In this document: piece after piece, positions 45,239-58,241 of the stretch | How the letters are laid out: each line of letters starts with the position of its first letter | Position numbering within the stretch: position 1 is the stretch's first letter | NCBI GenBank assembly: GCA_017421025.1 | Contig: JAFQME010000002.1 | Span: 1 to 58,241, forward strand | Direction: 5' to 3' | DNA: 58,241 nt | Source: Oscillospiraceae bacterium | GTDB lineage: Bacteria; Bacillota; Clostridia; Oscillospirales; JAAYXM01 | Position numbers and translations under genes: made by a program | Notes under the pieces: model-generated | What the model was told of the DNA's origin: nothing | Seen by the model: the letters and a program-made list of their open reading frames with translations, nothing else | Database searches by the model: none

Positions 45239-45964
45239 ATGAGAAATGGGTGTGAAAGGATGAAATATAAGATTGCCATTGTGTTTTTGGTCTTGGTTTT
45301 CTTGTTTTCCGCAGGAAAAGTTGGCAAAACACTCTATGATTACCATAAAGCAGACCAAATCCACAAAACCGAGCAAGTGCAGTTTACTTCTGTCGGTGAG
45401 GTTGCTCCCATCCAAGTTGCTTTTGACGAGTTGTTAAAAGAGAATTCGGAGGTCACAGGTTGGTTATACTGCCCGAACACTCCAATCAACTACCCTGTCG
45501 TACAAGCAAAGGACAACAACAAATACCTAAGACGTGATCTGCACGGGAAATATTTGGTAACAGGAACACTCTTTGTAGACTTCCGCAACCATGCAATCAC
45601 AGAAGATCGTAACTTTATTATTTACGGTCATAACATGAAAGACGATTCCATGTTTGCCTCGCTGTTAAATTACAACGATCAATCGTATTACGAAGCGCAT
45701 CCGATTCTTTACTATCTCACTCCAAACGGAGATTACAAGATCGAATTGATTGCAGGACTCCTTGTCCCTGCAAATTCCAAGCTCTATCATCCATCCCCTG
45801 ATGAACTTTGGCTTTCTGAATTCTTGACAGAGGCAAAAGCCAACTCCGGGTTTATCTCCTCGGTTGCTCTATCAGACAGTGATCGTATCATTACCCTTTC
45901 CACTTGTTCGTATGACAAGAAAAAAGCGCGATATGTTCTGATTGGAAAACTCATCAAACTATAA
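45239..45964 (+). CDS. Class B sortase
   Basis: 241 residues. An N-terminal signal-anchor (about 9-25) is followed by the sortase fold. His131 in 'NFIIYGHNMKDDS', Cys223 in 'ITLSTCSYDKKKARYV' and Arg231 form the catalytic triad. 'FDELLKENSEVTGWLYCPNT' and 'NYPVVQAKDNNKYLRRD' are typical of SrtB. An alternative start at 45260 is possible. It cleaves a sorting signal and joins the protein to cell-wall peptidoglycan. The likely target in the window is the SPFTG-bearing protein at 48449-49480, since clostridial SrtB enzymes are known to accept S/PPxTG-type signals. Confidence 0.9.
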   Translation: MRNGCERMKYKIAIVFLVLVFLFSAGKVGKTLYDYHKADQIHKTEQVQFTSVGEVAPIQVAFDELLKENSEVTGWLYCPNTPINYPVVQAKDNNKYLRRDLHGKYLVTGTLFVDFRNHAITEDRNFIIYGHNMKDDSMFASLLNYNDQSYYEAHPILYYLTPNGDYKIELIAGLLVPANSKLYHPSPDELWLSEFLTEAKANSGFISSVALSDSDRIITLSTCSYDKKKARYVLIGKLIKL

Positions 45965-46005: not shown

Positions 46006-47757
46006 TTATGATTCACTTGCAGAAGATGATCCTCCGCCGCCCGAGCTGCCACCCGAGGACGAACTGCTTCCGCCGCTTGAACTGCCGCCCGAAGAGGAAC
46101 TACTTCCACCACTTGAGCTACCGCCCGAGGAAGAACTGCTTCCACCACTCGAACTGCCGCCCGAAGAGGAACTGCTTCCGCCACTTGAGCTACCGCCCGA
46201 AGACGAGCTACTTCCGCCACTCGAGCTACCGCCCGAAGAGGAACTGCTTCCGCCACTCGAACTGCCGCCCGAAGAGGAACTGCTTCCACCACTCGAACTG
46301 CCGCCCGAGGACGAACCGCTTCCGCCACTCGAACTGCCACCCGAAGAGGAACTGCTTCCACCACTTGAGCTGCCGCCCGAGGAAGAACCGCTTCCGCCAC
46401 TTGAGCTGCCGCCCGAGGACGAACCGCTGTCGCCACTTGAGCTACCGCCCGAAGAGGAACTGCTTCCGCCACTCGAGCTTCCGCTCGAAGACGAGCCGCT
46501 GTCGCCACTTGAGCTACTGCCCGAAGAAGAACCGCTGTCGCCGCTTGAACTACCGCCCGAGGAAGACGAGCCGCTGTCGCCACTTGAGCTTCCGCCTGAG
46601 GAAGACGAGCCGCTGTCGCCGCTTGAACTACCGCCCGAGGAAGACGAGCCGCTGTCGCCGCTTGAACTATCGCTCGAAGAGGAACGATCTCCACCACTTG
46701 AACTATCGCTCGAGGAGGACGAATCGCTGTCACTGCTTGAATTATTACCGGATGTAAAGGAACTGTTTCCTCCGCCCAAACTTCCGCCATGTGAAGAGGA
46801 CGAACCGCTGTCTCCACTTGAACTGCTGTCAGACGAAGAAGAACTTTCGGTGTCGCTCGAATTGCTGCCCACAGAGGATGAATCACTGTCATCAGAGCCA
46901 ACATTGGTCGAGCCCGTACTTCCACCTGAAGAGGATCCGGCTTCTCCGCTCAGACCATCATCTGACGAGGAACTACTGTCAGCGTTTGATTCATGGTCAA
47001 TCGAATCGGAACTGCTATCATCGTCAGAATCAGTGCCGATTGATGTTCCATTGTTGCCGGGCATTGCGCCACCGACTTCACTATCAATCGAGGTTTCATC
47101 CATGGATTTCAATTCTCCATCGACATTCTCATCCTCTTCTGAGAACACAATCGGTTCTCCAACCGGGATTGCATCGCCATCCACGATTAACACCAGGTTG
47201 ACATCTTCGAATTCTTCATAATCTGCAATTGTGCCCAAATAGGATGTCACGGTGATTGTCGCCGGGACAGAAACATCGAAATAGAATTGAATTTCAGAGA
47301 GGTTTTCACCCTGCCAAGACATCGCAGGAGTACAATACAAACCATTGTATAAGGGATTATCACAAATTACTTCAAACACACAAAAGCCATTCTTGGCGGT
47401 ACCTGCTGCGGAAACCGTCACATAATAACTTCCAACAGTATCAATTGTAACTTCATGAGTGTGGTCATCTACCTCAACAAACTCAGGTTGGACGATTTCC
47501 ACGCCTTCCTCAGGTTCAATCAAAGTCAATGAAGCACGCTCGATATAGACATGTGCGTTAAAACTTGCACTTGCAATCACATTGTCCTCTGATTCCATCT
47601 GGTAGTTGAACATTGCATGAGAATATGCGGTGACTACCATTGCGAGCAGGCAGAGCAAAATAAACACAGTCGTGAAAATCACATGCGCCATCATCACTTG
47701 ATCTTTAATTTTTCCGTCTTTTGGGACATGAAAATATTCCCGAAACAGCGATTTCAC
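46006..47757 (-). CDS. Ser/Gly-repeat membrane-anchored surface protein
   Basis: 583 residues from a GTG at 47757 (GGAG 8 nt upstream). The order is: a short basic N-terminus, one membrane span (about 22-46, 'VIFTTVFILLCLLAMVVTAY'), a folded extracellular domain (about 50-205, with four Cys), then a low-complexity tail of Ser, Gly and Asp to the end. The tail is built of 12-residue units of the type SSSSSGGSSSGG. It has no LPxTG-like end. The N-terminal region recalls signal peptides of SipW-type proteins but without the AWFTD motif. A flexible, possibly glycosylated stalk outside the wall is likely. Last gene of the surface cluster. Confidence 0.8.
   Translation of the reverse strand: MKSLFREYFHVPKDGKIKDQVMMAHVIFTTVFILLCLLAMVVTAYSHAMFNYQMESEDNVIASASFNAHVYIERASLTLIEPEEGVEIVQPEFVEVDDHTHEVTIDTVGSYYVTVSAAGTAKNGFCVFEVICDNPLYNGLYCTPAMSWQGENLSEIQFYFDVSVPATITVTSYLGTIADYEEFEDVNLVLIVDGDAIPVGEPIVFSEEDENVDGELKSMDETSIDSEVGGAMPGNNGTSIGTDSDDDSSSDSIDHESNADSSSSSDDGLSGEAGSSSGGSTGSTNVGSDDSDSSSVGSNSSDTESSSSSDSSSSGDSGSSSSHGGSLGGGNSSFTSGNNSSSDSDSSSSSDSSSGGDRSSSSDSSSGDSGSSSSGGSSSGDSGSSSSGGSSSGDSGSSSSGGSSSGDSGSSSGSSSSGDSGSSSSGSSSGGSSSSSGGSSSGDSGSSSGGSSSGGSGSSSGGSSSGGSSSSSGGSSSGGSGSSSGGSSSGGSSSSSGGSSSGGSSSSSGGSSSGGSSSSSGGSSSGGSSSSSGGSSSGGSSSSSGGSSSGGSSSSSGGSSSGGSSSSSGGSSGGGGSSSASES
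46030..46690 (-). repeat. 36-bp coding repeats (SSSSSGGSSSGG-type), about 18 units
   Basis: In-frame tandem repeats with a 36-bp period, drifting from Asp-containing units (SSGDSGSSSSGG) near the 5' end of the tract to pure Ser/Gly units at the 3' end. Sequence differences between units are mostly silent, so the protein pattern is selected. Confidence 0.85.
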
Positions 47758-47790: not shown

Positions 47791-48432
47791 CTAGTGCTGC
47801 TGTGTTGCGTTACAAATAAGGCCGAGTTCTACACGTGGCTGAACGCTTCCACGGTAGTTTGCTTCGTTACCGACTTCCTCCGGCATACGTACAATCAACG
47901 CTATGTATTGCTCTCCACCTGCATCGATCGATGCAACATTGGTAGAATAGTTATTCAGCGGCATATTCGCTATTGCCGCCGCAAGAGAGCGATTTGCCAG
48001 TTTTGCATCCAGTTCTGCTTCTGTATCTGCGATTAGAACCCCAAACGTCAAGTGATCCTGCAAGTTAAAAGACCGTCCAAACACATTGATTGCAGGGGTA
48101 TAGTCTGTAATATTGACTGCTGCTTTGAAATCAAACGGGATTGTGCCTCGGTTTTCCACTTTCAAGAACACGACCTGTGTATAACCGGGCTCATAAAGTG
48201 CCTCATCCTCAAAGATTTTTTGGGTTCCATCCAATTCTTCAAACGTCCCATCCTCTAAACGATGTGAAACCACAAGGTCAAATTCCGCAATGTGGAAAAT
48301 ATTACGCACCTCGTTGGATGTATCAGTGAACCACGCCAAGGAGGCTCCTGCACCCATAAACGCCCAAAGCCCGAACAAACACAAGCTAAGCAACAGTGCT
48401 ATTTGTTTATATTTTTTCTTTAAGATAGACAC
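47791..48432 (-). CDS. SipW-type signal peptide protein, TasA/camelysin-like
   Basis: 213 residues from a GTG at 48432 with AAGGGGG upstream. The signal peptide has the SipW-substrate form: a hydrophobic stretch then 'GASLAWFTDTSNEVRNIF' at residues 30-46. The mature part is beta-rich with 'YEPGYTQVVFLKVENRGTIP', matching the 'EPG..Q...LKV.N.G' pattern of the TasA/camelysin family. Such proteins form fibres or bind the matrix in Bacillus. SipW itself is not in the window. Confidence 0.8.
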   Translation of the reverse strand: MSILKKKYKQIALLLSLCLFGLWAFMGAGASLAWFTDTSNEVRNIFHIAEFDLVVSHRLEDGTFEELDGTQKIFEDEALYEPGYTQVVFLKVENRGTIPFDFKAAVNITDYTPAINVFGRSFNLQDHLTFGVLIADTEAELDAKLANRSLAAAIANMPLNNYSTNVASIDAGGEQYIALIVRMPEEVGNEANYRGSVQPRVELGLICNATQQH

Positions 48433-48448: not shown

Positions 48449-49480
48449 TTATTCGTGCCCCTCGTCGGAATCTTTCTTTTTCTTGATAAACACCAAAATC
48501 ACAAGCAGTGCTGCTGCAAGTACCATAACCGAAACCCACAACCACAGCTGTGCATTGTCACCGGTAAACGGACTTTGTCCGCCTGCATCTTTGCTTGGAT
48601 ACTGACCTCCGGCATCTTTACTCGGGTATTTCCCATCGTCTTTGCCTGGAGTATCGTCTTTGCCACCCGTGGGGACATCGTCTTTGCCACCCGTGGGGAC
48701 ATCGTCTTTGCCACCCGTGGGGACATCATCTTTGCCGCCCTCAGGGACATCATCTTTGCCGCCGTCGGGGACATCATCTTTGCCACCATCAGGGACATCG
48801 TCTTTGCCACCGTCGGGGACATCGTCTTTGCCGCCGTCGGGGACATCGTCTTTGCCACCGTCGGGGACATCGTCTTTGCCACCATCGGGGACATCGTCTT
48901 TGCCACCATCAGGGACATCATCTTTGCCACCATCAGGGACATCATCTTTGCCGCCCTCAGGGTCGTCTTTGTCATCGATCGGAATCTCTTCAACCATAAA
49001 ATGCCAATCCAAATAACCGATCATATCACTGTATGTGTTGTCCAGCTCAACCGGAACAGTCAGCACAACATCGAGATCAACTTCAGCACCCGTCTCCAAG
49101 GTGCCAAGCAAGACCCAGTCTTGGAGTGGCACTGCTTCATTCGCAGCATTTTCAAACAGGGTGCTTTCTGCACTCTCATCGCTGAGTTTGACTTGGAGAC
49201 CAAGCTTGGACAAAAACTCGCCCGATTCCGGATGTGCACCACGAGAACGCATATAAATCTTAACTGCTGATTTGTTGGATGCTTTGTTTTTCAATGTGAT
49301 CTTCTGTGTAATCACATCTCCCGGCATGACGTCCTTAAAATTTGTAAACAAATCCGTTGGCGAATACTTACTGCCGGGAGTAAAGACAAACTCTTTCGCA
49401 TCTCCGTCGTATGTGACATTAGCCGCATAAGCTGAAGTGAGAAGCACAAGCATCAACAGAAGGGATACTAATTTTTTCAT
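48449..49480 (-). CDS. Wall-anchored repeat-stalk protein with SPFTG sorting signal
   Basis: 343 residues. A Sec signal peptide ends near 'LTSAYAANVTYDG' (about residue 19). A beta-rich domain follows (20-165, 'DVMPGDVITQKITLKNKASN'). Next comes a stalk of about twelve GGKDDVPx octapeptides and two YPSKDAGGQ units. The end is a sorting signal: SPFTG (303-307), a hydrophobic helix, and KKKK. It would be cleaved in SPFT-G and linked to peptidoglycan by a class B sortase such as the one at 45239. The Lys/Asp/Pro stalk may span the wall. Confidence 0.85.
   Translation of the reverse strand: MKKLVSLLLMLVLLTSAYAANVTYDGDAKEFVFTPGSKYSPTDLFTNFKDVMPGDVITQKITLKNKASNKSAVKIYMRSRGAHPESGEFLSKLGLQVKLSDESAESTLFENAANEAVPLQDWVLLGTLETGAEVDLDVVLTVPVELDNTYSDMIGYLDWHFMVEEIPIDDKDDPEGGKDDVPDGGKDDVPDGGKDDVPDGGKDDVPDGGKDDVPDGGKDDVPDGGKDDVPDGGKDDVPDGGKDDVPEGGKDDVPTGGKDDVPTGGKDDVPTGGKDDTPGKDDGKYPSKDAGGQYPSKDAGGQSPFTGDNAQLWLWVSVMVLAAALLVILVFIKKKKDSDEGHE
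48670..48965 (-). repeat. 24-bp coding repeats (GGKDDVPD-type), 12 near-identical units plus one variant
   Basis: Counted on the nucleotide sequence: twelve GGKDDVP units and one GGKDDTP unit, period exactly 24 bp, no spacers, in frame with the gene at 48449-49480. Last position varies D/E/T. Such tracts change copy number readily. Confidence 0.9.
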
Positions 49481-49491
49481 CTTTGTCCCCC

Positions 49492-50058
49492 CTATTCTTT
49501 CGGCCAGCCGAGAGCTTCAAAGGTGTTTGTGCCCTCGACCGGGTTGTTTTCACTTTGCACTGCATGGGCAATGACCTTTAATGTCAACGTTTCTCCACGA
49601 TAGCGCTCATCAGAACGCTGGATTGCCACTTTGACCTCAGAGAACACATTGGGCGTGGTCTCGCCCGGTTCAACGATACCGGTGTAGTAATACCAACCAT
49701 CGACATACTGCCATAAAGCCTCATCAATATTGAGTTTGAAACATTCATCAGCCGAAAGTGCACGTCCCTCTACACCGGATACGATTTTGACACGCAGATA
49801 GAACGGATGCGCACAGATGTTTTCAATGCGGACCTGTTTGGACACCACATCACCCGGATTCACATACACACCACGTTTGGGGAATTCTTTCCCCTGGTCG
49901 GTGGTCTCATGAATGATAAACTGGATTTTACCGGAGGTCACAACATTGGTGGTTTTTCCAAATGCGACGAAATACGCAAGAGTACCTTGGGTGAAGAGCG
50001 TAAAAACAATTGCAACCAATGCGAGAGAAACCAATTTCAATCGTAATTTTTGAAACAC
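49492..50058 (-). CDS. SipW-type signal peptide protein, second TasA/camelysin-like member
   Basis: 188 residues from a GTG at 50058 with GGAGG 8 nt upstream. The signal segment is 'LFTQGTLAYFVAFGKTTNVV' (residues 21-40), a variant of the AWFTD form (AYFVA). The mature part has 'YVNPGDVVSKQVRIENICAHPF' (shortened here to NPGDVVSKQVRIEN), again like the TasA family. It lies downstream of the 1982-residue gene with a hairpin-bearing spacer and 11 nt before the stalk gene. It may be a fibre or accessory subunit. Confidence 0.75.
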   Translation of the reverse strand: MFQKLRLKLVSLALVAIVFTLFTQGTLAYFVAFGKTTNVVTSGKIQFIIHETTDQGKEFPKRGVYVNPGDVVSKQVRIENICAHPFYLRVKIVSGVEGRALSADECFKLNIDEALWQYVDGWYYYTGIVEPGETTPNVFSEVKVAIQRSDERYRGETLTLKVIAHAVQSENNPVEGTNTFEALGWPKE

Positions 50059-50168: not shown

Positions 50169-53100
50169 TTAAATGTATTTCTTGTAGCGCTCAATCATTG
50201 CAACGAGTTCTTCCATGGTCATGTTGCCCTTTGCAATTGAGATCTTGAGGTACGGACCACCCGCTGCATAGAACATTTCCTCGGTAAGTTCTACATACTG
50301 CGAGAGTTCTTCGTAAGTGAAGAGTCCATAAGTTGCAATATCTCTTGCCATTGCTGCGAAATCATAACTCATGGTTTCTGCATCAACATCAAAGATGTTC
50401 ATAAGACCCGCTACACCGCCCGGCATGGTCAACATATCGTTGACGAAGTAGCACAAATGCTCCACGGTAACCGGACTCCACGGAGTTGTAACTTGATCCT
50501 GGAGAACGACTTTGACCAGTTTCACCTTACTCAATTTCTCGCCATCTTGCTTTGCAAAGGTATGACCGATGTATTTCGATGCGTTGCAATCAAGATAAAC
50601 GTAACGGTTGAGGTCATAATCCCAGAAGCCGTGTTCGGAAATGACGTCCACCTTCGTTCCGTCCGAGAAATACAGTTGAATGACTTCCCAAAGTCCCTGC
50701 GGATCGTTGTCAACAAACATGATCGGTGCGGAATCCAATTTACCGGTCTCGAGATTCCAAACCAGAAGTTCTTCGCTTCCGTCAAGTTCGGAAACCGCCT
50801 TCTTGCTTCCGTCTGCCAGTGTAATCAAGCTATCCGGTGTGACGCATCCACCACCGCCACTACCGGCTTGCAGTTTGGTCATTGTACCATCGCTGACCAA
50901 AGTATTATAATTATACTGCTCATCTTTATTATACGCTATGTTCCAGGTGTGATCAAACTCCAGTTTTGTCCCGCCATTATTATCGGTAAACTCGTAGTGA
51001 ATTGTTATTGCACGACTAGTAGTTCCCGAGCCAACAAAACCACTTGTGCCAGAAATAGTAAAGTAAACCTCGTTTGCATCCTGACGTCCAATCGGTATTC
51101 CAAATACCGATTTGCCGCTGTGGATTGCTACGCTATTGGTAATCTTTAACTTATAGTCTTTGTTATCCGGCTCATATTCCCAATAATTATTCGCTTCATT
51201 TAGCTTACCATTCTTTGGAATCGGAATTGACGAAAGCGGAAGCTCTACGTATTTCTTTTCTGCAACACTCCAATATTTAATCGTTACACCCGACAATACC
51301 GGAGCCGCCGCACTCCAGTCTCCACCATAACTATTCGCCACGCCAAACCCATCAGCATAGTTTTTGGTAACCAAACTCGGAGAATCCTTGCTGGTTTCAG
51401 TACCGGTGACTTTCCAGTTTGCAGTATATGTCTTCCCATCAATTGTCTTGGTCAAGACATAAGTCTTACCACCGGTTTCGACCGCTGCCGAAGACGGTTT
51501 TGCGTTACCATCCACCATGTAGTCAGTATAGGTAACACCGTTAACCGACATAGTAAGCTGACTGAAATCGATTGCATAACCGCTTAACTTATCAAGATCA
51601 ACACCCAGTTCATAGATCCAGCCGCTTGTATCATAGGATTTACCCGGGGTCAAGCCGTCTGTGGTATCAGTATAAGAAACCTCAACAATATCACTGTACT
51701 TATTCGGTTCATATCCAGCTTCGTTCTTAATTTCACCATCTGTTCCGCCGGTGTTTTTATAAGAATATATATACAAGGTTGTAAATATGTTTGGTTTTAC
51801 TTCGACATGCTCATACGGAACAGAAGACTTATTTTCTCGATTATCTACAATGTTAGTCGGCGTGTTAACATTGGTGGAACTACTGCTTTCCGGCATATAT
51901 GCAAAACCAAGATTCAAAGACTCGTTTATACCGTCTCCATCAATGTCATGCAGATAGTCGGTTTTCGTCAACGCCGCATCAACAATGCTCTGTCCGTCGC
52001 TCGGCACATACTGGGTATGGTCCGAATTTACCCATGCATTTTGGATGAGTTTTCCTTCTAAAGTGGTGGAAGTTGCCTTTCCTTCCGCATCACATACATA
52101 CAGAACGCTAAAGCCCATCAAAGACTTGTTGCTGTCATGGGTAGACGCTGCTGGTTTCTGCACCAGGGTAACATTGCGCAATGTCAAGCTGTTTGCGGCA
52201 CCAACCAAAATACTTGCAACCGCACCAAGCTCAATGCGAGAATTGTCAATGACCACGTTACCACCTGAAACATTGACAGCCGCACGACCGCCCGAGATAC
52301 GAGAATTCAAAATCTGGCTATTACCAGATGCTATAACGCCGCTCTTCGCATTAAAATAACGGGTTTTATCGGTTGTTTCGCTACGGTTTTCATCACTAGT
52401 CAAGTTCGACTTGTAAAGTGCCGCATAGTCAAAGTTCGGACAAATAACCTGTACATTGTCAAGCGTACCATTGTTCAATGTAACAAATGAATAACCGAAG
52501 TCAAGTGCAGCGGAATCACTACCACAAGTCAGGGTAAAGCCGTTACCGTAAAGGGTATGACCGCCCGAAACCTCGAGTGATCCAAATCCACCATCCTTCA
52601 ACAGAACAACGTCCTTATCCGTAGCATTTGTTGCACCTGTTACGTTAGTTGCTGTAACTACTTCGAGAGTAATCTCTGTTGGGATACAATAGTCATCGTC
52701 CTGAACTGTGACTTTAATTCTACCGTTGCCGGAGAACTGAATGGTTGCCTTTGTCCAGTCGGACGCATTCGCAGTGTAAGCCCCGGCTGCAGTTCCGCTA
52801 ACAGTTTCGAATGCTACGGAAACATTACCGATTGTAACATCGGTCACAGCTTCAAACAAACTGCCAAGTGCGACACTGTTTTGATTGCCGACACGATAAG
52901 TAAATGCAGTGCTGGTAAATTTCGTTTCAAACTTTTTGACCGGTACACGTTCTTTGACTGTTACGTTGATTGTAGTCGGAGTACAGAGGTTATCATCCGT
53001 AATTGTAATAGTTGCTGCACCATTACCGCCAAAGGTCAACGTCCCTTTTGTCCAATCAGAAGAGTCCGCTGTATAGGTTGCGGCGGCGGTACTCCCGTCT

Positions 53101-56100
53101 GCCGGTGTTAAGGTAACCTGAACAGCATCAGATACAATCTCTGCACCGTCAGCTGCTGAGAACAGTTCCCCAACACTGATGGTAGTACCTTCATCGAAGG
53201 TTGCGCCGTCCTGATCAGACGTAAACTTGACTACCGGCTCCGGCTGATACTCAACGATTTCCACATTGATTGTGGTCGGAGTACAGAAGTAGTAGTCGGT
53301 AATGGTGATGGTTGCCGCACCGACGCCCGAGAAGGTCAAAGTACCCTTTGTCCAATCAGAAGTATCAGCGGCATAAATACCACTTGCGGTACTTTCGTCA
53401 TCGACCGGAGAGACATAGACCTGAACATTTTCAGACTGAATCGTTCCTGCTCCGCTTGCGGTAAACAAATCGCCAATGTTGATTATTTCATCTGTCGTAT
53501 AAGTCTCTTTTGCGGCGTCAGCCTTTTTGAATTTCTCCACAGAGTCTTTTTGATCGGAGGAGGTGATATCCATAGTATCGATGCCGTCAAAATCCTCTAT
53601 TCCCTTGCTGGTAACGCCCCAACCATAGCCGGTGAAGAGCTGGTTGAACGGCAGATAGATGTGGCGATGATCTTCAACATCAATTTCCACACCGTTTACC
53701 GTTTCTTTGCCACGGGAATCATGGCTATACGGCTGCCCGTCAACAAAATGATAGCAGGTGGCGTTTTCGGTAGAAAACTCACCCGGTCCTCGGACCACAA
53801 AGTTATAAGTTCCGGCTTCAATGGTCTTTTTTGTACCATTCAGATAAGTAACTACATTGCCATTCACACCAGCAACTTCTTCCAAACGACTAAACTGGTG
53901 GTCATGGGTATACGATGCGAGCGAATTTGCGACCAATTCGCAATAGTAATAGTCATTCCAAGTCTCGTAATGAACGGTACAGCCGGATGCGGTGATGCCA
54001 TCCATTTTGGGATAAACACGACCGTTTTGGGTAACGTTCTCACGGATCGAGCCAATCATCATACCCGCATAGCGGTATGCATAATACTGATAGTTTGCGC
54101 AAACGTCGTTATAAACGTCCATCACAGCGGAAACATGACAGTTTTCGAAGTGAATGCCCGGGTTTTTAGGGGTACCTGCAGATGTTTGACCACTTGTGGG
54201 ATAATATTGACCAACAATACCGCCACAGGCAACGTCATAAGAACCCCAGAGGGCGGAGATCTTGTTTGTGCTGTCTACCGTGATGTTTTTGAATGTGACC
54301 TTTTTGTCGGTAGTCCCCTTGGTGTACCAACCGACACAACCGACGATGCCGCCGTTTCCGATGTTATAAACACGCGGGTTACAGTTTGTGATTGCGATAT
54401 TTTCAAAGGTGGCGCCGAAATCGGCATAAGCGGCAATCACGCCGGTGGTAGTAATTTCACCGTCGGATGTGAAATCATGAACGGAAAGGTTCTTAATTGT
54501 GCCGCCGTAAACTCTACCAAATAAGCCCATGCCGTCACGGTAGTGTTGATCCTCCGGTGCATACCAGTCATGGTCACCTTTCATTTCCCAGGTGTTCTGA
54601 TAGATGTTGGAAATGGTGTGTCCGTTCCCGTCAAAGGTTCCTTCAAAGTTTTTGAAACCGCTGGAGATGGCTATACCGGTTTTATCATCGTAGTTGGCTT
54701 TGTCGTCATTATTATAATAACCGACCGGATAGAAGATCTTTTTTTCAGGACCGTTTCCGGCTCCGTCATGATTGATTACAGTTCCGTAATTGAGGTTGAT
54801 ATCCGAAAGGAGTGTGATGGTATCGCCGTTAAAGGAGTCTGCCTCAATACCATCCGCCATACCACCAACAATTTTTGCAAAAGCATAGAGCTGATCGGCG
54901 TTATAAATCACAAATTCGGTTGCATTCGGGTCTTTGGTGTACCACGAATCATCTATGTCACCATTCCATTTGTTTGCAGTATCTGCAACGAGGGCAACTT
55001 CGGAGAAGGTTGCCATTGCAACGGTGACCGCACCGGTGTCGGAATCATAGGTGAACTGGTTGTGTGCAGTAAGTGCTGCAACAGAATCCACCATGCTCAT
55101 CTCGTTGTTGACGCCGTCTTCCACATGGTAAAGATGATAGTTCCCCATGTTGAGGTACTTCGGCAGAATCTCACCGAGATCAATGATGATCGGTGCTGTG
55201 TTATCCTCTGCCACGCCTTCGATATGAACATCCACCGGAATCAGAATTTCCTGATTGACCACTGTGATGTCACTGGTGGTTTTTTCCAGTGGGGTGACAG
55301 TAACAGTGAGTTTCTGCACGCCGTCTTCCAGTTTCACATCCTCCGGCAGAACTGCGGAAACGCCACCGCCGGAAATGGTAAGACCTCCGGTGGGAATCTT
55401 GCCGTCTTCAAGCTCGACTTCTGCCTTGCTGGAGTTTAACACCTTCGGGAAAGATGCATCCTTATCATAGTCGGTGCCGAACGAATCCGCTTCATATGCG
55501 CACTGACTTGCGAGCGCTGTGATGGTAAAACCATCGCCAACGCTTTCATTCTGATACTCATTCCCTGCTGTGGTGAGCATACTCATGGCAAGGGTGATGA
55601 TGGTCTCGGAAGAATCATGCAGCGGGCTTTCTTCGTTTTTGGCAAGTAACGAACCCTTTGCGGTTGCGCCGCCATTCATGACGTTGGAAAGAAGTCCTAT
55701 CGAGTTCAGATTGTCTAAATCCGAACGTTGTGCAAGTGCGACACCGTCGGTGCCGTAATACACACTGATTACCTCAGCGAGTTTTCCTACACTTCCACTC
55801 GGTGTGAGTGTGAGTTCAAAATTGAGGGCAAGACTTCCCTTGTTGACAAGTTTGATGTACTTGACATCGGTGTAGCCCGGCTCCCAGTTGTCATAGTTAA
55901 AAACTGTGTTGTACTGCGGATCCTCTACATTGTACCAAGTGCCCGTTGCAAGATCATCGGTCCAGTACATTTCAAGGTCCAAGTTGCCGGACTTGATGAT
56001 GTTGTTGACGCTGGAAACATTGTCGGTAAACCATGCAAACGTGGAGCCAACAAACATAGAGATGCAGACAAGGAGTGCCAGTACGCTATGGAGATATGCG

Positions 56101-56117
56101 GTACGGGTTTTTTTCAT
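50169..56117 (-). CDS. Giant surface protein with SipW-type signal, GLUG-like and beta-helix-like regions and C-terminal Hint domain
   Basis: 1982 residues. Order: SipW-type signal ('FVGSTFAWFTDNVSSVNNII', 22-41) and TasA-like domain to about 230; linker domain (about 240-390); GLUG/adhesin-like beta region ('FDGNGHTISNIYQNTW', 'GLFGRVYGGTIKNLSVHDF', about 400-760); three repeats of about 95 residues, each with 'DWTKGTLTFSGxG' and 'CTPTTI' (about 860-1150); beta-helix-like stretch ('GGHTLYGNGFTLTCGSDSA'); further beta domains; a GSGGGG linker; then a Hint domain at 1758-1900. Hint features: Cys1758, 'LITLADGSKKAVSEL', 'VISEHGFWDYD' with His1829, and 'VTVEHLCYFVNDML'. A helical tail of about 75 residues ends the protein. 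Hint domains form a thioester at their first Cys, leading to cleavage or attachment of the N-terminal part. The terminal Asn of inteins is absent, so splicing is unlikely. Confidence 0.85.
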   Translation of the reverse strand: MKKTRTAYLHSVLALLVCISMFVGSTFAWFTDNVSSVNNIIKSGNLDLEMYWTDDLATGTWYNVEDPQYNTVFNYDNWEPGYTDVKYIKLVNKGSLALNFELTLTPSGSVGKLAEVISVYYGTDGVALAQRSDLDNLNSIGLLSNVMNGGATAKGSLLAKNEESPLHDSSETIITLAMSMLTTAGNEYQNESVGDGFTITALASQCAYEADSFGTDYDKDASFPKVLNSSKAEVELEDGKIPTGGLTISGGGVSAVLPEDVKLEDGVQKLTVTVTPLEKTTSDITVVNQEILIPVDVHIEGVAEDNTAPIIIDLGEILPKYLNMGNYHLYHVEDGVNNEMSMVDSVAALTAHNQFTYDSDTGAVTVAMATFSEVALVADTANKWNGDIDDSWYTKDPNATEFVIYNADQLYAFAKIVGGMADGIEADSFNGDTITLLSDINLNYGTVINHDGAGNGPEKKIFYPVGYYNNDDKANYDDKTGIAISSGFKNFEGTFDGNGHTISNIYQNTWEMKGDHDWYAPEDQHYRDGMGLFGRVYGGTIKNLSVHDFTSDGEITTTGVIAAYADFGATFENIAITNCNPRVYNIGNGGIVGCVGWYTKGTTDKKVTFKNITVDSTNKISALWGSYDVACGGIVGQYYPTSGQTSAGTPKNPGIHFENCHVSAVMDVYNDVCANYQYYAYRYAGMMIGSIRENVTQNGRVYPKMDGITASGCTVHYETWNDYYYCELVANSLASYTHDHQFSRLEEVAGVNGNVVTYLNGTKKTIEAGTYNFVVRGPGEFSTENATCYHFVDGQPYSHDSRGKETVNGVEIDVEDHRHIYLPFNQLFTGYGWGVTSKGIEDFDGIDTMDITSSDQKDSVEKFKKADAAKETYTTDEIINIGDLFTASGAGTIQSENVQVYVSPVDDESTASGIYAADTSDWTKGTLTFSGVGAATITITDYYFCTPTTINVEIVEYQPEPVVKFTSDQDGATFDEGTTISVGELFSAADGAEIVSDAVQVTLTPADGSTAAATYTADSSDWTKGTLTFGGNGAATITITDDNLCTPTTINVTVKERVPVKKFETKFTSTAFTYRVGNQNSVALGSLFEAVTDVTIGNVSVAFETVSGTAAGAYTANASDWTKATIQFSGNGRIKVTVQDDDYCIPTEITLEVVTATNVTGATNATDKDVVLLKDGGFGSLEVSGGHTLYGNGFTLTCGSDSAALDFGYSFVTLNNGTLDNVQVICPNFDYAALYKSNLTSDENRSETTDKTRYFNAKSGVIASGNSQILNSRISGGRAAVNVSGGNVVIDNSRIELGAVASILVGAANSLTLRNVTLVQKPAASTHDSNKSLMGFSVLYVCDAEGKATSTTLEGKLIQNAWVNSDHTQYVPSDGQSIVDAALTKTDYLHDIDGDGINESLNLGFAYMPESSSSTNVNTPTNIVDNRENKSSVPYEHVEVKPNIFTTLYIYSYKNTGGTDGEIKNEAGYEPNKYSDIVEVSYTDTTDGLTPGKSYDTSGWIYELGVDLDKLSGYAIDFSQLTMSVNGVTYTDYMVDGNAKPSSAAVETGGKTYVLTKTIDGKTYTANWKVTGTETSKDSPSLVTKNYADGFGVANSYGGDWSAAAPVLSGVTIKYWSVAEKKYVELPLSSIPIPKNGKLNEANNYWEYEPDNKDYKLKITNSVAIHSGKSVFGIPIGRQDANEVYFTISGTSGFVGSGTTSRAITIHYEFTDNNGGTKLEFDHTWNIAYNKDEQYNYNTLVSDGTMTKLQAGSGGGGCVTPDSLITLADGSKKAVSELDGSEELLVWNLETGKLDSAPIMFVDNDPQGLWEVIQLYFSDGTKVDVISEHGFWDYDLNRYVYLDCNASKYIGHTFAKQDGEKLSKVKLVKVVLQDQVTTPWSPVTVEHLCYFVNDMLTMPGGVAGLMNIFDVDAETMSYDFAAMARDIATYGLFTYEELSQYVELTEEMFYAAGGPYLKISIAKGNMTMEELVAMIERYKKYI
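50410..50846 (-). other. Hint (Hedgehog/intein-type) domain within the giant surface protein
   Basis: Residues 1758 to about 1903. Cys1758 codon is at 50846-50844 directly after a GSGGGG linker. Block A 'CVTPDSLITLADGS' and 'LLVWNLETGK' match Hint starts; block B has His1829 in 'VISEHGFW', with Ile where the usual TxxH motif has Thr; block G-like 'VEHLCYFVNDMLTMPGG' lacks the final His-Asn. This pattern predicts thioester formation with cleavage, not splicing. Confidence 0.75.
52640..53535 (-). repeat. Three tandem repeats of about 95 residues in the giant protein
   Basis: Each unit has a 'xxGDLFxA' or 'xGELFSA' segment, then 'DWTKGTLTFSGxGAxTITITD' (only the core DWTKGTLTF is quoted in full) and 'CTPT' or 'CIPT'. 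Unit 3 is the most diverged. One further unit is in the neighbouring paralog, at about 56290-56540. Confidence 0.75.
54980..55224 (-). repeat. 245-bp near-identical segment, copy in the giant gene
   Basis: Matches 57997-58241 with no gaps (offset 3017 bp) and three mismatches by eye. Flanking sequence on the downstream side of the gene is much more diverged, so the similarity ends abruptly. Confidence 0.9.
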
Positions 56118-56239: not shown

Positions 56240-58241
56240 TTAGGACCACGGGTTAACGATGTCGTTATCAAGGCTTCCCTCAATCAGAACACTACGAATT
56301 GTACACGGGGTACAGAAATAGTAGTCAGTGATGGTGATGGTTACCGCACCGGTACCGGAGAAGGTCAAAGTGCCCTTTGTCCAATCCGAAGCGTTCGCAA
56401 CATAAGTACCGCTTGCAGTACTGTCTTTATCTGCAGGAGAAACAGTAACCTGAACCTTATCCGACTTGATGGTTCCCATTCCGGTTGCAACAAACAAATC
56501 GCCCACGTTATAAGTCTTTCCGGCAGAAACAGTCTTGATCTGACCGTTTACAGCAAACTTCTCTTCAGATTCCGCACTTTGTTGATTGTCGAGAATCGTG
56601 ATATCAAGCCCCGGATATATTTCGTTAAGGTTTTCTTTTTCACTGACGAGCGGAATGTTCATAATACCGTCGCCGTAGCCTTGGAACACCTGATTAAACG
56701 GGAGATAATAGTGCTGTCTGTCTTCTTTCAGAACTTCTTCTTTAACACCATCTTTATCAACGTCAACAATCTCTGTTCCTGCATCTTCGTGGTTCCAAAC
56801 TTCACCGTCAACGAAGTGATAACAGGTTGCATTTTCTGTTGAGTAAGGCTTTGTGACAACAACATAGTTAACTCTGCCCGATGAAGGAATCGCTGTTGTT
56901 TGGCCATTAACTGTATATGTCTTGTTTTCAACATCTACAGCATCAACTCTTGTCAGTCTTGAGAACTGGTGATCATGTGTATACGATGCAATTGAGTTTG
57001 CAACAAGTTCGCAATACCAGTAGTTATTCCAGTCACCGAAATGGACGGTACAGCCGGATGCGGTGATTCCTTTCATATTCGGACGAATGTACCCGTCTTC
57101 ACAGGTTTCATTTAAGCGGATAGAACCAATCACCATCCCGGCATAACGATACCAATACCACTGATAGTTGCCGCAGACATCGTTGTTGGCATCAATTTGC
57201 GCTGCAGTATGACAATTTTCAAAATGTACGGTATAATCCGCACCTTCGCTGCTGCCGTACCACTGACCCATGATACCGGCACAAGAGGTGCCCCAGTTTC
57301 CCCACAATGCGGAGATCTTGTTGGTGTTATCCACGGTAATGTTGCGGAAAAGCAGGCTGCCGCCGTTTTTGCGATCCCACCAACCGCCGCAACCAACGAT
57401 ACCGCCGTTACCGATGTGGTAAACACGCGGATTACTATTTACAACCGCAATGTTTTCAAAGATTGCGTTATCCGCATAAGTTGCAACACAACCGGTGGTA
57501 GTGTACTCACCATCAGATTCAAAGCGGTCAACACGCAGGTTCTTGATAACAGCAGGATTTGCACTTGTCCCTCTAACACGGCCAAAGATACCCATTGCAT
57601 CGTCCCAATAGCCGTTGTCATAGTCACCGTCCATCAGCCAGGTGTTCTGGTAGATGTTTCCAATGGTATGACCGTTACCGTCAAAGGTTCCGGAGAAGTA
57701 ACTGTTACTAAATCTGTACCACTCGGTTTCCCCTGCCGCATTTGCACCAACACCCGGAACACGATAGCCAATCGGATAGAACACAGTCTGCTTATCGTCA
57801 GTATCACGGGTATGCACACCATTCATATCAAGATTGGAGATGAGTCTGTAGTGTGCGCCACCATAAGTGGCATTTTCAATCGAAACCAAAGTGGACAAAC
57901 CCGCGAGTTCATCCGCACTGGAAATGATGTATGGATTTTCAGCAGTTCCTTCGCCTCGGAAAACGACATCTTCTTCACCGTTCCATGCATTTGCGGTATC
58001 TGCAACGAGGGCAACTTCGGAGAAGGTTGCCATTGCAACAGTGACCGCACCGGTGTCGGAATCATAGGTGAACTGGTTGTGTGCAGCAAGTGCTGCAACA
58101 GAATCCACCATGGTCATCTCGTTGTTGACGCCGTCTTCCACATGGTAAAGATGATAGTTCCCCATGTTGAGGTACTTCGGCAGAATCTCACCGAGATCAA
58201 TGATGATCGGTGCTGTGTTATCCTCTGCCACGCCTTCGATA
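56240..58241 (-). CDS. Paralog of the giant surface protein, 5' end outside the window, no Hint domain
   Basis: About 667 residues are visible, open through the right edge; an ATG at 58231 is internal, as the frame continues 'IEGVAEDNTAPIIIDLG' exactly as in the giant protein. The order repeats the giant: linker domain, GLUG-like region ('FDGNGHTIGNIYQNTW', 'AMGIFGRVRG'), the 'CHFV'-type Cys segment, and one DWTKGTLTF repeat. It then ends early: after 'YYFCTPCTI' comes a short unrelated tail 'RSVLIEGSLDNDIVNPWS'. It therefore lacks the other repeats, the beta-helix-like part and Hint. It may be a secreted partner or a deletion product. Confidence 0.85.
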   Translation of the reverse strand, partial: IEGVAEDNTAPIIIDLGEILPKYLNMGNYHLYHVEDGVNNEMTMVDSVAALAAHNQFTYDSDTGAVTVAMATFSEVALVADTANAWNGEEDVVFRGEGTAENPYIISSADELAGLSTLVSIENATYGGAHYRLISNLDMNGVHTRDTDDKQTVFYPIGYRVPGVGANAAGETEWYRFSNSYFSGTFDGNGHTIGNIYQNTWLMDGDYDNGYWDDAMGIFGRVRGTSANPAVIKNLRVDRFESDGEYTTTGCVATYADNAIFENIAVVNSNPRVYHIGNGGIVGCGGWWDRKNGGSLLFRNITVDNTNKISALWGNWGTSCAGIMGQWYGSSEGADYTVHFENCHTAAQIDANNDVCGNYQWYWYRYAGMVIGSIRLNETCEDGYIRPNMKGITASGCTVHFGDWNNYWYCELVANSIASYTHDHQFSRLTRVDAVDVENKTYTVNGQTTAIPSSGRVNYVVVTKPYSTENATCYHFVDGEVWNHEDAGTEIVDVDKDGVKEEVLKEDRQHYYLPFNQVFQGYGDGIMNIPLVSEKENLNEIYPGLDITILDNQQSAESEEKFAVNGQIKTVSAGKTYNVGDLFVATGMGTIKSDKVQVTVSPADKDSTASGTYVANASDWTKGTLTFSGTGAVTITITDYYFCTPCTIRSVLIEGSLDNDIVNPWS
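57997..58241 (-). repeat. 245-bp near-identical segment, copy in the paralog (to window edge)
   Basis: Matches 54980-55224 with three mismatches and no gaps. The match runs off the right edge, so the identical part is longer than seen here. Confidence 0.9.

Follow-up and report, generated by a model that had tools for sequence, protein, structure and literature searches.

What does a Hint domain do at the very end of a giant exported protein, where no downstream segment is left to be spliced? The question is raised by a 58,241-nucleotide stretch of an Oscillospiraceae bacterium genome (contig JAFQME010000002.1 of assembly GCA_017421025.1), hereafter the window, which encodes a 1982-residue exported protein (50169..56117 on the minus strand, including the stop codon). 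An earlier note on the window had proposed that this protein ends in an autoprocessing Hint domain followed by a helical tail. We suggest, with somewhat less than even confidence, that the last 225 residues form a self-acting C-terminal processing module, made of the Hint domain and an obligate tail, which would transfer the preceding protein to a nucleophile in a Hedgehog-like reaction. It appears to be a so far undescribed means of releasing proteins or attaching them chemically. No paper on a Hint-plus-tail family was found in the literature searched, which is not proof that none exists.

The Hint domain and its helical tail

Module residues are numbered here from Cys1, and all module features of the window lie on the minus strand. 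The Hint domain spans residues 1758-1899 of the giant protein (Cys1 to Pro142; 50421..50846). Its match to the Pfam Hint model falls below threshold (E 5e-4, 20.1 bits against a cut-off of 29.7), yet the predicted structure settles that the last part of the protein has a Hint fold. The AlphaFold2 model of Hint plus tail, based on a 70-sequence alignment, reached a predicted local distance difference test score (pLDDT) of 96.5 and a predicted template modelling score (pTM) of 0.91. Residues 1-146 of the model superpose on inteins, Hedgehog and BIL domains with Z scores of 17.5-19 over 132-139 residues (Foldseek, VIA-align). Individual values were 18.0 and 18.2 for Hedgehog (1at0 and 6tyy), 18.7 for Tetrahymena BIL2 and 17.5 for a BIL of Clostridium thermocellum. 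In a profile search, the best sequence relative in the PDB was BIL2 (6y75, E 1.3e-6), with the entire Hint covered. Structure prediction thus returned the fold that had been proposed from the sequence, and not a different one.

Only seven columns never vary in the alignment of 70 module copies, which has a mean column identity of 51%: Cys1, Gly35, His72, Gly94, Phe97, Leu110 and Lys206. Cys1, the predicted nucleophile, is Cys1758 of the giant protein (50844..50846), and His72 is the block B histidine, His1829 (50631..50633), found here in an IxxH rather than a TxxH motif. Both residues had been picked out in the earlier note together with a GSGGGG linker, and all are found in the sequence. The linker lies immediately ahead of Cys1 (50847..50864), and the predicted scissile bond Gly1757-Cys1758 is at its end. 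Across the family, residue -1 is mostly Ser or Gly. The spacing between Cys1 and His72 equals that of fly Hedgehog in 83 of 90 members. Asp1803 (Asp46; 50709..50711) occupies the site of the Hedgehog general base. An Asp is present there in 72 of the 83 gap-free members, in the context I-[LM]-F-[IV]-D compared with ILFMD in the fly, whose sequence was checked against 1at0. Asp46 is absent from the class's own control Hint domains, namely five of the pretoxin type and three inteins. Where a splicing domain would carry His-Asn, the family has Met-Pro (M in 61 and P in 65 of 70 copies), so that the terminal Asn for splicing is indeed missing.

The C-terminal tail (residues 1900-1982; 50172..50420) is predicted confidently even when modelled alone (pLDDT 93.8). 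The tail had been described as conserved, helical and about 75 residues long, and its extent is now 80-83 residues with five predicted helices. Its invariant lysine, Lys206, corresponds to Lys1963 (50229..50231), was found in 70/70 copies and is kept in gut-phage copies. The tail fold has no match in the PDB (Foldseek, VIA-align) and the tail belongs to no Pfam family, which does not make the fold new. A likeness to toluene monooxygenase in a single-sequence PDB search (E 0.02-0.3) disappeared in the profile search and was taken as chance. Standard annotation misses the module because the Pfam Hint match of the window copy is below the cut-off and no Pfam family covers the tail.

The tail is tightly coupled to the Hint domain. 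Among 394 genomes of the window's order, separate searches for the Hint and for the tail return the same strong matches, and the tail is present in all 15 genomes with a strong Hint match. The sole tail without a Hint is found in genome G078 (L020:1486-2678), where a SipW-type gene is joined directly to a remnant of the Hint end plus the tail, with the middle deleted. Judged from this arrangement, the gene is a decayed module gene. Proteins with the module stop at most a few residues after the tail, or approximately 45-50 residues beyond it in a handful of cases. As far as sequences can tell, Hint and tail are one module.

Spread across exported proteins and phages

The module is patchy. It was found in 16 of the 394 genomes of the window's order, including one weak match, and in a phylum-wide sample of 388 genomes it was present only in the window's own genome. 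A scan of 84,980 GTDB species genomes with two peptide patterns, one containing His72 and neither containing Cys1, returned 115 relatives, and 79 loci were kept. Almost all are metagenome-assembled genomes (MAGs) of Clostridia, many with gut or faecal sample names, which turns an unchecked impression of the earlier note, that such modules recur in gut Clostridia, into an observation. The scan patterns do not account for the conservation of His72, as 29 of the 70 members lack the His72-bearing pattern and still have the residue. Plasmids and GenBank phages gave no module match.

The sequences ahead of the module are far more diverse than the module itself. When the 81 copies preceded by 200 residues or more are compared, modules align in 3240 of 3240 pairs and ectodomains in 710. 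The ectodomain families include InlB-type repeats (20/43), BspA leucine-rich repeats (9), camelysin/TasA (4) and subtilases (3), with single cases of an IgA peptidase M64, a papain, a trypsin-like and a lipase-like protein. A leader or membrane helix is visible by eye in nearly all complete N-termini. On sequence evidence, the module forms the C-terminus of many exported gut-bacterial proteins that are unrelated to each other. The idea that it serves adhesins in particular does not hold, since it also ends subtilases, other peptidases, lipase-like and pilin-like proteins as well as a phage protein. Four Hint-tail proteins (L040, L041, L080 and L100) have N-termini resembling type IV prepilins (e.g. 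FTVVELVIIIAVIAILAAV). Exported paralogues excepted, no partner family is widely shared within 10 kb of module genes, and the lack of a dedicated partner gene fits a self-acting module.

Sortases were found in 12 of 50 module genomes, with none detected in the other 38, and in 78 of 98 genomes of the window's order, a comparison without lineage matching between the two sets. Of six module carriers in the order's sortase survey, five have a sortase. A rule by which the module replaces sortase is unsupported given these order carriers and the unmatched lineages. Mur ligase matches were missing from the draft MAG carrying L092, and a single weak match each was found in the drafts with L082 and L091, which suggests that these three hosts are wall-less. 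The genomes of L082, L091 and L092 (G532, G538 and G539) are recorded as Bacilli, Acholeplasmatales and Bacillales. Provided that these drafts, in which an absence is not proof, are representative, peptidoglycan is unlikely to serve as a general acceptor.

Viral contigs of IMG/VR carry the module as well. The full module, including Lys206, ends a 767-residue protein encoded directly after portal and terminase genes and ahead of a 3328-residue protein (L172:8378-10678; also L159-L162 and L173-L176). A second phage group, which its neck and tail-sheath genes mark as T4-like, keeps Cys1 and His72 in a Hint that is followed by a different helical-looking tail, in a short protein encoded between tail-sheath stabiliser and terminase genes (L177:5548-6609, L184:5554-6624; L178-L195). 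This group has lost Thr69, and the sequences suggest that Hint domains lacking Thr69 make up a separate clade. Cys1 and His72 are present in all phage copies examined.

A proposed reaction and its competitors

Because the C-terminal Asn is missing and no C-terminal partner is there to be joined, a thioester formed by this Hint domain would be resolved by an outside nucleophile. The replacement of His-Asn by Met-Pro leaves only thioester transfer or hydrolysis among the known Hint routes. We suggest that, after export, Cys1758 would attack the carbonyl of Gly1757 in an N-to-S acyl shift, with His1829 helping, to yield a thioester. The tail might dock the module, or hold an acceptor, beside the thioester. 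The thioester would then be resolved by a nucleophile from outside, probably the hydroxyl or amine of an envelope or matrix component, which Asp1803 would activate where that residue is present. The ectodomain would end up bound via its C-terminus and the Hint-tail part would leave, following a Hedgehog-like logic. The Hint-tail part most probably cuts itself off the giant protein. We judge cleavage of the Gly1757-Cys1758 bond to be likely, and consider it evenly balanced whether the acceptor is more than just water.

Hedgehog-like chemistry of the module is plausible by analogy. It is favoured by the combination of a Hint domain with an obligate helical region, by the fly-like spacing of Cys1 and His72 and by Asp46 in most members. 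In Hedgehog, Asp46 restrains Cys1 until cholesterol arrives and then deprotonates the cholesterol hydroxyl, and it is described as absent from inteins (PMC9163320). A more far-reaching proposal sees in the module the bacterial equivalent of Hedgehog processing, which would join the C-termini of many unrelated exported proteins to a small envelope hydroxyl or amine (of a lipid, glycan or matrix component) and thereby provide a sortase-free, wall-independent covalent anchor that was exchanged with phages. In this full form, the proposal is rather unlikely.

Several observations weigh against Hedgehog-like transfer. Mutation of the Hedgehog Thr69 to Ala greatly reduces the reactions (PMC9163320), and the module has replaced this TxxH threonine by Ile (55/70) or Val (12/70), a feature that the earlier note had overlooked. 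Hedgehog Cys143 has no clear counterpart, as the end of the Hint domain has Met-Pro and no conserved Cys. Asp46 is not universal, with divergent members carrying other residues, and it is absent in both phage groups. In addition, a gapped alignment places an Asp of Npu DnaE and of Mtu RecA in column 46, so that Asp46 is not diagnostic. Human SHH was part of this comparison as well. As proof of Hedgehog kinship, Asp46 is thus weakened by the two inteins, the divergent members and the phage copies. Finally, the gut-phage module protein adjoins virion genes and has no obvious signal peptide.

The phage copies bear on an alternative in which the module is a self-cleaving assembly chaperone or release device. 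The module would aid the folding, export or assembly of the large ectodomain, or hold it at the membrane through the tail, and would then cut itself off, with water resolving the thioester and nothing attached. C-terminal self-cleaving chaperones are a known theme in phage structural genes. The position of phage copies beside virion genes, in gut phages and with another tail in T4-like phages, together with their lack of Asp46, strengthens this explanation, and the portal and terminase setting fits release or assembly no less well than it fits attachment to the envelope. The C-terminal placement on long repetitive or beta-rich proteins is also in its favour. However, subtilase and lipase-like ectodomains have no obvious need of a chaperone, Asp46 in most bacterial members suggests that an acceptor other than water is activated, and conservation of the tail extends to an invariant Lys. 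We regard hydrolytic release of this kind as somewhat unlikely.

The losses at the TxxH threonine, at Hedgehog Cys143 and at the intein His-Asn could also indicate that the Hint is catalytically dead and has been retained to cap the C-terminus structurally or as a binding domain. Cys1 and His72 would be dispensable in a pure cap, yet they are invariant in 70 of 70 copies and kept in all phage copies examined, making a dead domain improbable. We consider lysine conjugation still slightly less probable. Tetrahymena BIL2 conjugates its N-terminal neighbour to a lysine through an isopeptide bond (PMC8616854). By the same route, the thioester of the module would be taken by a lysine of a neighbouring matrix protein, or by Lys206 of the tail, to produce cross-linked fibres. 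BIL2 being the best profile match in the PDB, the invariance of Lys206 and, in the window's clade, the location of the gene within a SipW/TasA matrix cluster all speak for such conjugation. BIL2 retains the terminal Asn though, which the Hint-tail family does not, and Lys206 may be structural. Bacterial Hint domains often directly precede toxin tips (PMC3482391), but a polymorphic toxin in which a pretoxin Hint frees the tail is very improbable, because the weak PT-HINT match in 4 of 70 members is set against a tail that is one conserved domain in all members rather than a variable tip, that matches no toxin family (as the earlier note had expected in seeing no toxin-like C-terminus) and that has no immunity-type gene recurring next to it.

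We place the module in the Hint superfamily as a new variant, outside the inteins, BIL-A, pretoxin HINT and Hedgehog families as defined. It shares the fold, the Cys nucleophile and the block B His with the superfamily and lacks the TxxH Thr, which is usual but not universal. A splicing intein or BIL-A is ruled out by the missing His-Asn and by the lack of a C-terminal host segment, the protein ending with the tail. As described in PMC4031507, BIL-A domains end in His-Asn and splice, and BIL-B domains lack intein block G and cleave at the splice site without splicing. The module, with Met-Pro and a fixed helical tail at the protein end, differs from BIL-A as described there. It is nearest in kind to BIL-B, as it has no similarity to block G, but the description consulted mentions no such tail for BIL-B. 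Like the Hedgehog Hog domain, the module is a bipartite C-terminal unit of Hint and helical region (serving sterol recognition in Hog) on a secreted protein without terminal Asn, with the same Cys1-His72 spacing and a fold matching 1at0 at Z ~18. Asp46 is found in most members but not in a divergent branch or the phage copies. It differs from Hog in having Ile or Val at position 69, no counterpart of Cys143 and an occurrence in bacteria and phages rather than animals. Its tail also has no detectable relation to the sterol region, for which no solved structure exists (PMC7906309). Pretoxin HINT domains (PF07591) are likewise C-terminal on large exported proteins, but have variable toxin tips instead of a conserved tail, and the controls lack Asp46. 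The LPXTG/sortase system resembles the module in placing one C-terminal unit on many unrelated exported proteins and, as proposed here, in its logic of thioester transfer. The catalyst of the module is part of the substrate though, and the module occurs also in genomes with no detected sortase and in genomes with almost no Mur ligases.

If active, the module would give uncultured gut Clostridia and their relatives a general system for processing protein C-termini. It would account for the anchoring or release of many adhesins, proteases and matrix proteins that lack a sortase signal. An active module would also provide a compact bacterial Hint-plus-tail with a confidently predicted tail, unlike the recognition region of Hedgehog, whose structure has resisted determination, and possibly a tool for protein ligation.

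The giant protein and its conserved gene cluster

The giant protein is encoded by an uninterrupted open reading frame of 1982 codons, as described in the earlier note. Residues 1-200 (55518..56117, minus strand) comprise a SipW-type signal, recognized by sequence, and a TasA/camelysin-like N-terminal domain. Pfam Peptidase_M73 matches residues 12-99 just above the curated cut-off (E 8.6e-5, 22.9 bits against 22.5), in agreement with the proposed TasA-like N-terminus. The three repeats reported earlier are likewise present, in tandem and of about 100 residues each (approximately residues 862-1153; 52659..53534, minus strand), with cores of the WTKGTLTFSG type at residues 922, 1022 and 1121. Of the GLUG-like and beta-helix-like regions described, the former is visible by eye (GTFDGNGHTISNI at residue 493), while the Pfam models of neither gave a match in the protein. 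The C-terminus carries the helical tail in place of an LPXTG-like motif, membrane helix and basic end, none of which is present there. Relatives of the giant protein with the same Hint-tail C-terminus were found at four loci (L028, L029, L097 and L157).

On sequence evidence, the gene of the window's clade belongs to a conserved matrix-type cluster. The cluster order is a SipW peptidase, a TasA-like protein, a giant paralogue without Hint and the giant Hint protein, followed by a TasA-like protein, a sortase-signal protein, a second TasA-like protein and a further small exported protein. The cluster is full in L097, with a SipW-type peptidase upstream, begins at the paralogue in L029, and is terminated by a sortase in L157 of genome G023. 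The window keeps this order down to its own class B sortase. No SipW was found in the window's genome, which is 77% complete. As the contig ends inside the paralogue, the expected upstream SipW gene would be out of view. The Hint-less paralogue (56240..58240, minus strand) runs off the contig end, shares 55% over 654 residues with the giant protein (BLAST), corresponds to its residues 299-956 and ends soon after the first repeat. A similar tandem of giant protein and Hint-less paralogue is found in L097 and L029.

The next gene (49492..50058, minus strand) encodes a TasA/BsaA-like SipW-dependent protein, with TIGR04088 over its cut-off and TIGR04090 below it (E 3.2e-9), and holds the same position in L029, L097 and L157. 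It is followed by a repeat protein (48449..49480, minus strand) with a sortase-type SPFTG signal, a membrane helix and a basic end, recognized by sequence and by a weak match to EF0750_LPXTG. Relatives of the repeat protein occur in the same three loci. It also contains a run of GGKDDVP-type repeats. A second TasA-like SipW-dependent protein (47791..48432, minus strand) is proposed from its conserved position and a weak, sub-cut-off match to TIGR04088 (E 0.0086). The class B sortase (45239..45964, plus strand; TIGR03064, E 1.7e-56) is the only sortase found in the genome, and one is also present in the L157 cluster. The SPxTG signal in the window resembles the SrtB motif of Clostridioides difficile. 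The claim that the giant protein is handled independently of sortase therefore holds in part: the protein itself has no sortase signal, but its conserved cluster also encodes a class B sortase and a protein with such a signal. A further neighbour of the TasA cluster (46006-47757, minus strand) has a long tail almost wholly of Ser and Gly, in SSSGGSSSGGS repeats.

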